Assembly: GCF_024372725.1 (NCBI RefSeq) | Contig: NZ_VOUA01000001.1 | Location: 124,001-188,000 of the forward strand | Direction of reading: 5' to 3' | DNA: 64,000 nucleotides | Source: Methanosarcina sp. KYL-1 | Lineage (GTDB): Archaea > Halobacteriota > Methanosarcinia > Methanosarcinales > Methanosarcinaceae | Part shown: positions 10,772-15,231 of the stretch, piece by piece | Position numbering within the stretch: position 1 is the stretch's first letter | Layout of the letters: every line of letters starts with the position of its first letter | Made by a program: the position numbers and the translations under genes | Notes under the pieces: generated by a model | What the model saw: only the letters and a program-made list of their open reading frames with translations | Database searches by the model: none | What the model was told of the DNA's origin: nothing

Positions 10772-11563
10772 ATGAAATCTAAATTAAGCCACTATTTTTC
10801 GTCTGTAACCTTGCTGTCAGGCTTTCTTCTGGCGTTAGCAGGTATCGCTTATGCCCTATCTGTAAATCTTACTCGAAGATCTGACCCGGGAGAGATAGCC
10901 ATTACCTACAGTTTCATCGGTTTAGGGTTATCCCTCATCCTTACGGGCATTAACCTGATGATCAAGCACCCAAAAGAATACCACTACTATGTGGTGGGAG
11001 CAGGCCTCGTGCTTAACTTACTCGGGCTGGGGGCTGTTCTTCTGATCTATCCAAGAGGTGGGTGGGTGTATCCCAATGTTACTTACATTGTTGTCACCTA
11101 TGCCGCCGGGGTCTGCCTGCTCGCAGGAAATGCCTTCGCAAACACGGTTTTGAACCAGATTGAAGAGAGGGCAAGGCAGCTTTTCGAGAATGAGTCTGAA
11201 GACACAAAAAAACATAGTGAAGATGATATCGAAAAAGAGGTCCAGAGGACCATTGACCGAGCTTTTACAGAAGAGGACAGTTTTTCGAGATTCAGTCTTG
11301 GGTTAAACGAATCTAATTATGATTTCGTTCTCGGAAAGGCGTTTTTGGAATCGGAAGAGAAAAAAACTGTTGTTCAGGATAATATTTCTGAAGTTGAAAG
11401 CTTAAGACTTGCAAGGAGCGGAAAGCTGGAAGTCTGTGACGATGGGCTCGATTCGACATCACTGTTACTTGCCCAGGCCATAAGCACGGACTCCGGAAGC
11501 AGAAAAACCAAAGGGATATTTGACAATAAAATGAAGTTGTTCAAGAGGCACAAAAATGGCTAA
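10772..11563 (+). CDS. Four-helix membrane protein paired with an actin homologue
   Basis: A 263-residue protein. Hydrophobic segments lie near residues 8-30, 43-63, 70-92 and 97-117. A cytoplasmic-type, highly charged tail (about 120-263) follows, starting with a likely coiled coil (NQIEERARQLFENESED) and ending in a basic patch (KLFKRHKNG). Its last 8 bases overlap the start of the actin-like gene, so the two are translationally coupled. Inference: it could anchor or position the actin homologue at the membrane. No named family was recognised. Confidence 0.75.
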   Translation: MKSKLSHYFSSVTLLSGFLLALAGIAYALSVNLTRRSDPGEIAITYSFIGLGLSLILTGINLMIKHPKEYHYYVVGAGLVLNLLGLGAVLLIYPRGGWVYPNVTYIVVTYAAGVCLLAGNAFANTVLNQIEERARQLFENESEDTKKHSEDDIEKEVQRTIDRAFTEEDSFSRFSLGLNESNYDFVLGKAFLESEEKKTVVQDNISEVESLRLARSGKLEVCDDGLDSTSLLLAQAISTDSGSRKTKGIFDNKMKLFKRHKNG

Positions 11564-12632
11564 AGGACTTGACGTAGGAACAATGAACATTATCAGTGCA
11601 ACCAAAGGGGAAGGTTCAATCTCCTTCGCACAGCAGAGAAATGCATTCCTTGAGATGGAAGCTAACGACCTGACGCAGCACATGCTTGATAATGCAAAAG
11701 TGCTGTACACTCAGAGAGGCAGCAACCTGAATGTGCTCGGGGAGGATGCATTTAAATTCTCCAATGTGTTTAACAAATCCATCAGGAGACCCATGAAGCA
11801 GGGGATCATCAGCCCTGATGAAAAGGAGTCCATCCCGATGATCAAGGTCATCATCGAGAGGGTTATCGGAGCCCCTGAAAAGAAGGACGAGGTTCTGTTT
11901 GTTTCCGTCCCTGCAAACCCTGTGGACAACAAGCTCAATGTGCTTTACCACAGCAAGACTGTGGAAGCCCTTGCAAAGAAACTCGGGTACAACACATTCA
12001 CGATTGACGAAGGGCTTTCCGTTGTGTATTCCGAACTAAGCGACTCCAACTTCACCGGTGTCGGTGTCAGTATCGGGGCAGGGATGACAAACGTAACCGT
12101 TGCTTACATGGCCACTCCAATCGTTTCCTTTAGCATTGCCCGTGGAGGAGACTGGATTGACGAGCAGGTCTCAGTTGCAACCGGCATGGCAAAAGAGAGG
12201 ATTACCGCAATCAAGGAATCGGACTTCTCCATCGGCTCCGAATACGAGCTCGGAAGCGTCCAGGGTGCCCTTGCCGTTTACTATGATGCCCTTTTAACAT
12301 ATGTCCTCCAGCACCTCAAGCGCAAGCTCTCGGAAACCGCTCCTCCCGATGCCGAATTCCAGGTGGCAATTGCAGGCGGAAGCACCAGGGCTAAAGGTTT
12401 TGTGGAGATGTTTGAAAAGAGGCTGAAGGAAACCAACCTGCCCATCAGGATTTCCAGTGTCAAGAAGGCCAGGTTCGTAAGCCCCTCAGGTTCGGACTCC
12501 AGAGACCCCCTCTACGCCATTGCCAGGGGATGCCTTATCGCAGCCCTCACAAAAGAGGCAAGCCTGTATCCGGAAGCCCAGGTCCAAACCTCAGCAATGA
12601 CAGAGGCCGTAGGCGCTGAAGAAGAGGACTGA
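11556..12632 (+). CDS. Actin/MreB-superfamily ATPase (volactin-like)
   Basis: A 358-residue actin-fold protein. Phosphate-1 motif GLDVGTMNI lies at residues 4-12, phosphate-2 VGVSIGAGMTNVTV near 168-181, and the adenosine motif AIAGGSTRAKGF near 270-281. The length and loops resemble archaeal actin homologues such as volactin of Haloferax, a cell-shape factor, and are shorter than eukaryotic actin. An EutJ/PilM-type relative is the main alternative. It overlaps the preceding membrane protein gene by 8 bases. Both products probably act together at the membrane. The assignment to the superfamily is firm; the shape or polarity role is inferred. Confidence 0.85.
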   Translation: MAKGLDVGTMNIISATKGEGSISFAQQRNAFLEMEANDLTQHMLDNAKVLYTQRGSNLNVLGEDAFKFSNVFNKSIRRPMKQGIISPDEKESIPMIKVIIERVIGAPEKKDEVLFVSVPANPVDNKLNVLYHSKTVEALAKKLGYNTFTIDEGLSVVYSELSDSNFTGVGVSIGAGMTNVTVAYMATPIVSFSIARGGDWIDEQVSVATGMAKERITAIKESDFSIGSEYELGSVQGALAVYYDALLTYVLQHLKRKLSETAPPDAEFQVAIAGGSTRAKGFVEMFEKRLKETNLPIRISSVKKARFVSPSGSDSRDPLYAIARGCLIAALTKEASLYPEAQVQTSAMTEAVGAEEED

Positions 12633-12969: not shown

Positions 12970-13147
12970 TGGAATGCAGTTAAGTAAACCTTCTCCGGGC
13001 CTGAGGGCGGCGGCGCATTCCGAAAATCAAATTTAGTTTTTAAACAAATTTATAAGGAATGAAGAGGATACTTAAAATAACTGGCACCTGCGGATTTAAT
13101 GACGGTGCTTTTTAGAATAACATGTAATATACAGGAGTAAAAACGTG

Positions 13148-13324
13148 ATGCAGTCATTTATAGTGGAACATTATCTTAACAAGGCCGTAGATGTCTACTG
13201 TGGCGGACCTGACGTATTCAAGGGAACAATAGAGGCCTGTGCCGATAATGTCCTTACCCTTAACAAGGAAGGAAAGCTTACCCATATAGCTATTGACAGG
13301 ATTATAGCCATGTGGGCTCAGTGA
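13148..13324 (+). CDS. 58-residue Sm-like small protein, copy 1
   Basis: A 58-residue protein that is not annotated by length-limited gene callers. AGGAG (13133-13137) precedes a GTG-ATG pair; I take the ATG because the second copy begins at the same residue. The pattern V-D-V-Y-C-G-G-P-D-x-F-x-G-x-I-E-A-C-A-D-N-V-L-T-L resembles an Sm1 motif (strand, Gly turn, F-x-G, D-x-x-x-x-x-L), and THIAIDRIIAMW resembles an Sm2 strand pair. Inference: a minimal Sm/Hfq-like barrel that could bind RNA. It is 42/58 identical by eye to the next gene. Two cysteines (CGG and EAC) are conserved in both copies. Confidence 0.8.
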   Translation: MQSFIVEHYLNKAVDVYCGGPDVFKGTIEACADNVLTLNKEGKLTHIAIDRIIAMWAQ

Positions 13325-13433
13325 TCTCAAAAGCAAAAAACGCCTACAGATGCTGAGAGCGCAGATATAGTTCTGAGAGCCGAAAACGGATCGGAAACGG
13401 GTACATTGAAGAAATATTTTGAGGTGTAAAGCA

Positions 13434-13610
13434 ATGCAGTCCTTTATAGTTGAACACCATCTCGGTGAAAACATTGATGTCTACTGCGGCGGGCCTGACA
13501 TTTTCACCGGAAAAGTCGAAGCCTGTGCAGACAACGTGCTCACTCTTGCAAAAGATGGAAAGTACACCCACATTGCCATCGATAAGATCATAGCCCTCTG
13601 GCGTTCATGA
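13434..13610 (+). CDS. 58-residue Sm-like small protein, copy 2
   Basis: This is a tandem paralogue of the preceding 58-residue protein, starting at the ATG at 13434 with GAGGTG (13421-13426) as ribosome binding site. An earlier in-frame TTG at 13419 would add five residues with no counterpart in copy 1. Differences from copy 1 cluster at residues 9-14 (HHLGEN against HYLNKA), at 25-28, and at the last two residues; the core Sm-like pattern is unchanged. The 109-base spacer between the copies is non-coding. The two products could form hetero-oligomers. A function beyond possible nucleic-acid binding cannot be read. Confidence 0.82.
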   Translation: MQSFIVEHHLGENIDVYCGGPDIFTGKVEACADNVLTLAKDGKYTHIAIDKIIALWRS

Positions 13611-13882: not shown

Positions 13883-14758
13883 TCAGTCATTTCTGTGAGC
13901 TGTCGCGTGGGAGGCGATAAACTCTCTCATGATTTTTGCCCCTAGCATGGCCGTTTGCCCGGAATCGTATTCAGGGGCTATTTCCATGATGTCAAAAGCC
14001 ATTGAGAAGGGGGCAAGGGTCCGGACTGCTGTCCTGACATCCCGGGCGCTCAGGCCGAAAGGTTCGGGGGTGCCGAGGCCGGGGGCGTAAGCCGGGTCTA
14101 TGGCGTCCATGTCCAGGGAGAGATAGAGCTGGCTGCAGTCCAGCCATTCGAGCGCTTCTTTGAGGACTTCGACAATGCCTATGGCTTCCACATCATCGGC
14201 GGTGTAGTATTTCAGCTTATTTTCCCTGGCAAAGACCCATTCTTCCTCCGGTCCGCTCCTGATCCCGATCGAGACCAGGTTTTTAGTGATCTCGGAGAGG
14301 ATGTTTCTGGACACGCAGGCGTGGTTATTTTTTAAGCCCCTGTACCCGTCCCTGAGGTCGAAGTGCGCGTCTAAGACCAGGACTCCGAAGTCGTCTCCTG
14401 CAAGCTCCGCACAGGCCTTGACCGTAGCGAAGGTCAGGGAGTGTTCGCCTCCCAGCATGATGGGGAGCTTCCCGTCGTCCAGAAGCTCTTTTGCTGCTTC
14501 GTAGAGGTCCCTCAGGGTCTCATCAACCGAGGCTGAAGTCTCCAGGTTTCCTGCGTCATGGATGGGCAGGTCTACGAGGTCGATGTCGAAGACGGGGTTG
14601 TAGCTCTCAAAATTTGCAGAGGCCTGTCGCATGGCATCCGGGGCCCAGCGGCTGCCTGCCCTGTACGAGGATGTGTTGTCAAAGGGTACGCCGAAAATCA
14701 CGTAGCGTGCAGCCTCATAATCCGAAAGGGCATCTATAAATGAATTAGGTAAAAACAT
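13883..14758 (-). CDS. speB: Agmatinase (ureohydrolase family)
   Basis: A 291-residue ureohydrolase. The metal-binding motifs are all present: GGEHS (about residue 103), DAHFDLRDG (about 130) with three ligands, and SLDMDAIDPAYAPGLGTPEP (about 214-233), with the GTPEP signature of agmatinase-like enzymes. Expected reaction: agmatine plus water to putrescine plus urea, with a binuclear Mn centre, in the cytoplasm. It lies 86 bases downstream of the IF5A gene on the same strand. This is a recurring archaeal arrangement and makes sense because IF5A carries hypusine made from spermidine or is deoxyhypusinated by agmatine-based chemistry. The ATG start has no strong ribosome binding site. Confidence 0.9.
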   Translation of the reverse strand: MFLPNSFIDALSDYEAARYVIFGVPFDNTSSYRAGSRWAPDAMRQASANFESYNPVFDIDLVDLPIHDAGNLETSASVDETLRDLYEAAKELLDDGKLPIMLGGEHSLTFATVKACAELAGDDFGVLVLDAHFDLRDGYRGLKNNHACVSRNILSEITKNLVSIGIRSGPEEEWVFARENKLKYYTADDVEAIGIVEVLKEALEWLDCSQLYLSLDMDAIDPAYAPGLGTPEPFGLSARDVRTAVRTLAPFSMAFDIMEIAPEYDSGQTAMLGAKIMREFIASHATAHRND

Positions 14759-14844: not shown

Positions 14845-15231
14845 TTATGTCCTTATGTCGAGCTTTATCTTGCCGAGGGCTGTGATGTAGGAAACTTCTT
14901 CTCCTTCTTTGACCCTGTCTTTGTATTCATCAGGGATTGTGATTTCAAAGGTTGAGAAATCTCCCATGTCCATAAGCTGGGCAACGTCTCCGGTGATTGA
15001 GATGATTTGTGCGCTCTTCCTTTCCACAATGGGGACGTAGACCTTGTTTGCAACCGAGCCGATGTATGAACGCTTCTGGTTGTCAAAGAGGCCGATAGCT
15101 TCGACCCTGGCCTTTGCAGCTCCGTGTTTCCCGGGCTTGGACTTGGAAATGCTCTTTATGACGCATGCTTCATCGTCAATGATGACGTATTTCCCTTCTT
15201 TAAGCTCCTTAACTTCTACCTGCTGTTTCAT
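14845..15231 (-). CDS. Translation initiation factor IF5A (hypusine-containing)
   Basis: A 128-residue aIF5A. The N-terminal SH3-like domain carries the modification loop SKSKPGKHGAAKA, with Lys35 in PGKHG as the predicted hypusine or deoxyhypusine site. The C-terminal OB domain follows from about residue 72. It binds ribosomes stalled on difficult peptide sequences such as polyproline and helps elongation and termination. Its length and motif are normal for archaea. The first gene of a minus-strand pair with agmatinase, it is preceded by a tandem array of TATA-containing repeats. Confidence 0.95.
   Translation of the reverse strand: MKQQVEVKELKEGKYVIIDDEACVIKSISKSKPGKHGAAKARVEAIGLFDNQKRSYIGSVANKVYVPIVERKSAQIISITGDVAQLMDMGDFSTFEITIPDEYKDRVKEGEEVSYITALGKIKLDIRT

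Follow-up and report, generated by a model that had tools for sequence, protein, structure and literature searches.

Two adjacent genes for proteins of only 58 residues in Methanosarcina sp. KYL-1 raise the question of what such a small pair may be and do. An original prediction, made from the letters of the DNA, saw in them minimal RNA-binding barrels with a pattern resembling the Sm1 and Sm2 motifs of Lsm/Hfq proteins, perhaps forming a hetero-oligomer, and took their divergence as a sign of distinct partners. Here, we ask how gene structure, predicted fold, kinship and individual residues bear on that proposal. Coordinates refer to the window, i.e. the whole stretch of 64,000 nucleotides that was analysed (contig NZ_VOUA01000001.1, positions 124,001 to 188,000 of the forward strand).

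Two constrained genes in tandem

The two genes, here called P1 and P2, their signals and their convergent neighbours are as follows.

13049-13055, plus strand: putative P1 promoter, TATA-box-like TTTATAA, perhaps serving both genes (from the upstream alignment)
13132-13137, plus strand: P1 ribosome-binding site CAGGAG (from the sequence; conserved in relatives)
13148-13324, plus strand: P1 gene, 58-residue DUF6897/MM0924-family protein, predicted Sm-fold barrel
13421-13426, plus strand: P2 ribosome-binding site GAGGTG (from the sequence; conserved in relatives)
13434-13610, plus strand: P2 gene, 58-residue DUF6897/MM0924-family protein, predicted Sm-fold barrel
13883-14758, minus strand: agmatinase (open reading frame), convergent neighbour, context only and not part of the system
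14845-15231, minus strand: translation factor IF5A (open reading frame and synteny), convergent neighbour, context only and not part of the system

Two intact genes, 42 of 58 residues identical between their products and a good ribosome-binding site for each had been described before, and all of this is borne out by the open reading frames and by the two sites, which are spaced 10 nt (CAGGAG) and 7 nt (GAGGTG) from the ATG of P1 and P2, respectively. Each product is a one-domain protein of about 6.4 kDa. Comparison of P1 with P2 within the window gives pS 0.77 and pN 0.17, and Methanosarcina orthologues show pN of 0.05-0.19 against pS of 0.24-0.82. With nonsynonymous differences so much rarer than synonymous ones, between the copies as well as between orthologues, P1 and P2 are real genes under purifying selection. 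Upstream of P1, the A/T-rich stretch TTTTTAAACAAA precedes the TATA-like box, which is conserved across 16 aligned upstream regions from Methanosarcina and near relatives. The two genes are 109 nt apart here, and in relatives the spacing lies between about 50 and 680 nt, which makes co-transcription plausible.

A family catalogued without function

Both proteins match Pfam PF21838 (DUF6897) over their full length (P1: E 8.9e-31, 105.8 bits; P2: E 2.5e-30, 104.3 bits; curated cut-off 23.9) and do the same with NCBIfam NF041655, the MM0924 family (P1: E 8.7e-26, 89.4 bits; P2: E 4.5e-26, 90.3 bits; curated cut-off 45). As both match both models, the pair is not a product of chance, and these profiles assign it to DUF6897/MM0924, a family catalogued without function. 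No paper on DUF6897 or MM0924 was found in the library searched; the one literature match for MM0924, a neurochemistry paper, was discarded as unrelated.

DUF6897 is present in all 31 Methanosarcina genomes searched, and a search for the pair, suggested along with the original prediction as a check, found two copies within 1 kb of each other in 26 of them (manual count). At family level 80 of 112 genomes carry DUF6897, and it was not found there in genus g5 and several other genera of the same family; in a phylum-level sample the count is 50 of 295 genomes. Model searches outside the phylum covered 14 control genomes and annotated collections, and among the 14 controls DUF6897 occurs solely in M. 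acetivorans. A mobile or viral origin was considered and rejected: no homologue was found in the phages, plasmids and viral contigs searched, PADLOC returned no match, and PHROG matches were weak ones only.

Both models predict an Sm-type barrel

AlphaFold models based on native alignments were obtained for P1 (pLDDT 93.2, pTM 0.75) and P2 (pLDDT 85.4, pTM 0.64), and their elements are identical, comprising a helix (residues 3-7) and five strands (13-17, 23-32, 35-40, 43-48 and 54-57). Both thus display the trait of the Sm-like superfamily, an N-terminal helix followed by a small barrel of five strands. When the two models were compared with the PDB by Foldseek, the top 50 matches were mostly chains of Hfq, archaeal Lsm and eukaryotic Sm proteins; Hfq aligned over the whole chain with TMq of 0.79-0.82 and an rmsd of about 1.9 A, and the archaeal Lsm/Sm structures included 6tfl, 1m8v and 1jbm. 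Judged by these models, P1 and P2 very probably adopt an Sm-type fold. This upholds the Sm-like barrel proposed earlier, and the outcome that had been named as speaking against it, a structure prediction lacking a five-stranded barrel, did not occur. What does not stand is the view that the pattern is packed into about two-thirds of the usual length, as 58 residues hold the complete helix and five strands and, relative to the full-size fold, are trimmed only at the beta3-beta4 loop and the termini.

The tiny size of the proteins keeps the Foldseek E-values weak (0.004-0.02, none passing 0.001). A search of the PDB by sequence found no relative. Other top matches were GerQ, MnxE, two designed small barrels (7ur7, 7uwy) and 7afi_X, a chain from a complex in 30S assembly; we take this chain to be RimP.

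Sequence profiles lead to RimP rather than to Lsm or Hfq

Of the known families, it is the C-terminal domain of RimP (RimP-C; PF17384, DUF150_C), and not Lsm or Hfq, that comes closest in profile comparisons. RimP-C is the commonest non-self Pfam match among 55 DUF6897 members (17 of 55); LSM (PF01423) matched none of the 55 at E up to 10, and Hfq (PF17209) matched neither P1, P2 nor any of the 55. The most divergent member (L158 1532-1774, minus strand) matches RimP-C with E 6.7e-4 and may form a bridge between the two families. Its Pfam score for RimP-C (20.3 bits) and that of P2 (15.9 bits) lie below the curated cut-off of 26.3, and 120 Halobacteriota genomes yielded no RimP-C match above it. 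Weak Pfam matches to FliN-C, Ig-like and similar domains were isolated, came from few members and were dismissed.

Using a RimP-C profile built from eight bacterial sequences, hhalign linked DUF6897 to RimP-C with E 3.5e-5 (probability 71.6%), a modest link whose alignment spans about 35 columns only. The value is 1.2e-4 without the bridging member and weakens to 0.0011 with the narrower alignment A1 alone; controls gave E 0.0097-0.67 (six unrelated families) and 0.24-0.46 (reversed profiles). RimP-C in turn reaches Lsm with E 2.9e-4 and Hfq with E 0.003, and Hfq reaches Lsm with 4.3e-4. Direct comparison of DUF6897 with Lsm and Hfq gave E 0.03-0.04, inside the control range, and pairwise shuffling against Hfq sequences was mostly not significant (best 2/500, for one Paenibacillus Hfq). 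A direct sequence relationship to Lsm or Hfq was rejected on these grounds, and membership of either family is not supported by sequence.

The RimP C-terminal domain has been described as an Sm fold (PMC9032327), and it is via RimP-C that DUF6897 shows detectable sequence kinship to an established member of the Sm superfamily. We regard this kinship as probable, and the consistent reading sees DUF6897 as an Sm-superfamily barrel of the RimP-C type. Besides the closest profile, P1 and P2 share with RimP-C the same helix and five strands. Their reading frames differ from RimP in holding the barrel only, without the N-terminal alpha/beta domain, and in being tandemly duplicated; RimP is bacterial and is described as a monomer that binds S12 and is not known from archaea (PMC9032327).

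Could the likeness be convergent? In that case P1 and P2 would be generic SH3-like small barrels which reached the Sm topology independently, and their resemblance to RimP, Hfq and Lsm would say nothing about function. Such a scenario draws on the designed, SH3-type barrels 7ur7 and 7uwy, which were made de novo and score in Foldseek as well as Hfq does, and on direct links to Hfq and Lsm that stay within noise. It sits poorly with a RimP-C link that survives removal of the bridging sequence and is far from the six negative controls, and with a list of top 50 structural matches in which there are no eukaryotic SH3 signalling domains. We therefore consider it improbable and keep to kinship with RimP-C.

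Hfq-like domains with a KHAI motif occur in some Halobacteriota of other genera (L132, L133, L134; also L135, L137, L138), three of them above the Pfam cut-off for Hfq, and the g10 genomes that carry such domains are without DUF6897. A review names one archaeon only with Hfq.

Residues do not support RNA binding of the Hfq/Lsm kind

The residue roles in Hfq and Lsm proteins, including those of the nucleotide pocket and the Lys-His pair, are established. A manual alignment guided by the predicted strands pairs E. coli Hfq residues Tyr25, Gly34, Glu37, Val43, Leu46, Tyr55 and His57 with Y17, G26, E29, V35, L38, Y44 and H46 of P2, respectively. The Y-K-H of Hfq Sm2, at the proximal RNA site, corresponds to Y/L-T-H, where His is kept in 104 and Thr stands for Lys in 107 of 120 members. 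In P2, Lys56 of Hfq becomes Thr45, and Gln41/Phe42 become Asp33/Asn34. The uridine-pocket motifs of Lsm, D-x-H-M-N in Sm1 and R-G-D/N in Sm2, are absent, their columns reading A-D-N/G-V and A-I-D-K-I. DUF6897 proteins have a mean net charge of -3.2 and a median pI of 5.0, and the mean charge of the Hfq set is +3.6. Acidity is, however, also seen in the Lsm proteins of this host, which are encoded by two true Lsm genes elsewhere in the genome (C16, C46). With pocket motifs absent, these substitutions in place and the proteins acidic, RNA binding by P1 and P2 in the manner of Hfq or Lsm is not supported by their residues. In sum of likeness and difference, Hfq is the best solved structural match and its Tyr25, Gly34 and His57 keep counterparts, whereas P1 and P2 are acidic rather than basic, carry Thr in the Lys-His pair and have no C-terminal tail; archaeal Lsm (SmAP) proteins share the predicted fold and, in this host, the acidity, and differ in their uridine-pocket motifs.

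These data bear on the possibility that P1 and P2 assemble, each by itself or both together, into RNA-binding rings of the Hfq/Lsm kind, which might be the sRNA chaperone that Methanosarcina seems to be without. The seven shared residues and the closeness of solved Hfq folds would suit such rings, as would the finding that an Hfq gene (PF17209) was not found anywhere in this genome. In M. mazei, moreover, sRNA162 has a low affinity for its target that neither of the two known Lsm proteins improves (PMC3510493). Given the missing Pfam matches, profile comparisons at control level, the negative charge and the replaced pocket residues, we see rings of this kind as unlikely. A more far-reaching version, according to which DUF6897 would represent archaeal RNA chaperones of the Sm type that have so far been overlooked as a class, with P1 and P2 in a mixed ring supplying the sRNA annealing that the two known Lsm proteins of Methanosarcina failed to show in vitro, strikes us as very improbable.

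Gene neighbourhood

That the pair lies near the genes for IF5A and agmatinase, as noted originally, is confirmed by the two reading frames on the minus strand. Agmatinase adjoins P1 and P2 at the same place in most Methanosarcina loci, and the agmatinase-IF5A neighbourhood is limited to Methanosarcina and close kin. As operon partners these genes were rejected, being convergent and replaced by other genes next to the copies of Methanolobus and Methanohalophilus. A comparison of loci across genera found no gene neighbour of DUF6897 conserved beyond Methanosarcina.

Several neighbours are recorded here for themselves. The single DUF6897 copy of Methanohalophilus adjoins a convergent gene for a stand-alone TRAM protein (L057 5334-5549, minus strand), and that of Methanolobus has a co-directional gene for an Lhr-type helicase just upstream (L069 60-2891, plus strand), both being RNA- or nucleic-acid-related genes. 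Upstream of P1 and P2 lies a gene for Volactin, an archaeal actin homologue (11556-12632, plus strand; PF25216, E 7.8e-112), which is overlapped by 8 bp by another gene (10772-11563, plus strand) whose 263-residue product is probably a membrane protein and belongs to no known family; these two genes stand together beside the pair in several relatives.

Neighbourhood also matters for the idea that the barrels work through proteins only, as regulators or scaffolds, either binding and adjusting a metabolic enzyme or a membrane complex or forming rings or filaments like the small barrels of MnxE and GerQ. Both of the latter are among the best structural matches, small proteins regulating enzymes are documented in M. 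mazei, and acidic proteins with a strongly conserved pattern (YCGGPD / EACADN / TH / W) would be in keeping with such a role. Yet no enzyme neighbour is conserved across genera and the sequence link leads to a ribosome-assembly factor, RimP, so that we rate this idea as rather unlikely, slightly more so than the Hfq/Lsm-like rings.

One old duplication and fixed differences between copies

In a tree of 119 DUF6897 members all P2-type proteins form one clade (support 100/95) and the P1-type proteins of Methanosarcina form a separate one (99/93); finer forks are weak because the alignment has 58 columns only. Tree and synteny together indicate that P1 and P2 stem from one old duplication near the base of Methanosarcina. 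Eleven positions distinguish the copies (9, 11, 12, 13, 25, 27, 39, 40, 44, 57 and 58), among them position 12 (Lys versus Glu), position 44 (Leu versus Tyr), position 25 (mostly Arg/Lys versus Asn/Ser/Thr) and position 27 (Thr/Ser/Asn/Ile versus Lys/Arg). A duplication with a conserved core and a divergent helix 1, as suggested before, is therefore correct as to the old duplication and the fixed differences in helix 1, but incomplete, since the loop and the C-terminus differ as well. The pattern of fixed differences fits the idea of distinct partners.

Further copies and variants were seen. On another contig the genome carries a third copy, which is divergent and adjoins a gene for a fasciclin-like protein (G000:C28:24142-24321; L003 1465-1686; L168 4110-4334); its start codon may be a rare ATT or else an ATG that lies about 33 nt ahead of the aligned start. 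Extra P1-type copies occur at other loci in several Methanosarcina genomes (L097, L174-L177), where the frames open with YQCFIVEH or YQCFITGH and lack the Met that usually comes first. In one Methanosarcina MAG (L037 4770-4942) a frameshift breaks the P1 copy and P2 is intact.

What P1 and P2 may be

The explanation we favour holds that P1 and P2 are stand-alone Sm-fold barrels, an archaeal version of the barrel which forms the C-terminal domain of the bacterial ribosome-assembly factor RimP. A single duplication near the base of Methanosarcina would have produced the two. They may serve as small docking modules, forming assemblies of one copy or of both and binding to the small subunit of the ribosome or to some other RNP, each copy being specialised for different partners. 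The analysis shows the conserved genes of a catalogued family, the complete fold, predicted with good confidence, the profile link to RimP-C and the old duplication with its fixed differences; oligomerisation, the docking partner and any involvement in ribosomes or RNA are inferred. Taken with all its parts, this account is tentative, having in our estimate nearly as good a chance of being right as of being wrong; docking to ribosomes or RNPs, a somewhat more doubtful proposition by itself, is still the likeliest function. Against the account stand the short span of the RimP-C link, the weak Foldseek values and the designed barrels that score equally well. Gene context does not point to ribosomes, as no neighbour of DUF6897 is kept outside Methanosarcina, and the patchy occurrence of the family, which is absent from g5 and several other genera of the same family, argues against a universal core ribosomal role.

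A fold and a superfamily are now proposed for a family found in all 31 Methanosarcina genomes searched, for which neither had been proposed before. Our findings suggest that a relative of the Sm-fold half of RimP persists as a very small independent protein in archaea, which are thought to be without RimP itself. They also provide new Sm-fold candidates for the question of which protein, if any, helps the small RNAs of Methanosarcina to find their targets, a task in which the two annotated Lsm proteins were of no help (PMC3510493).
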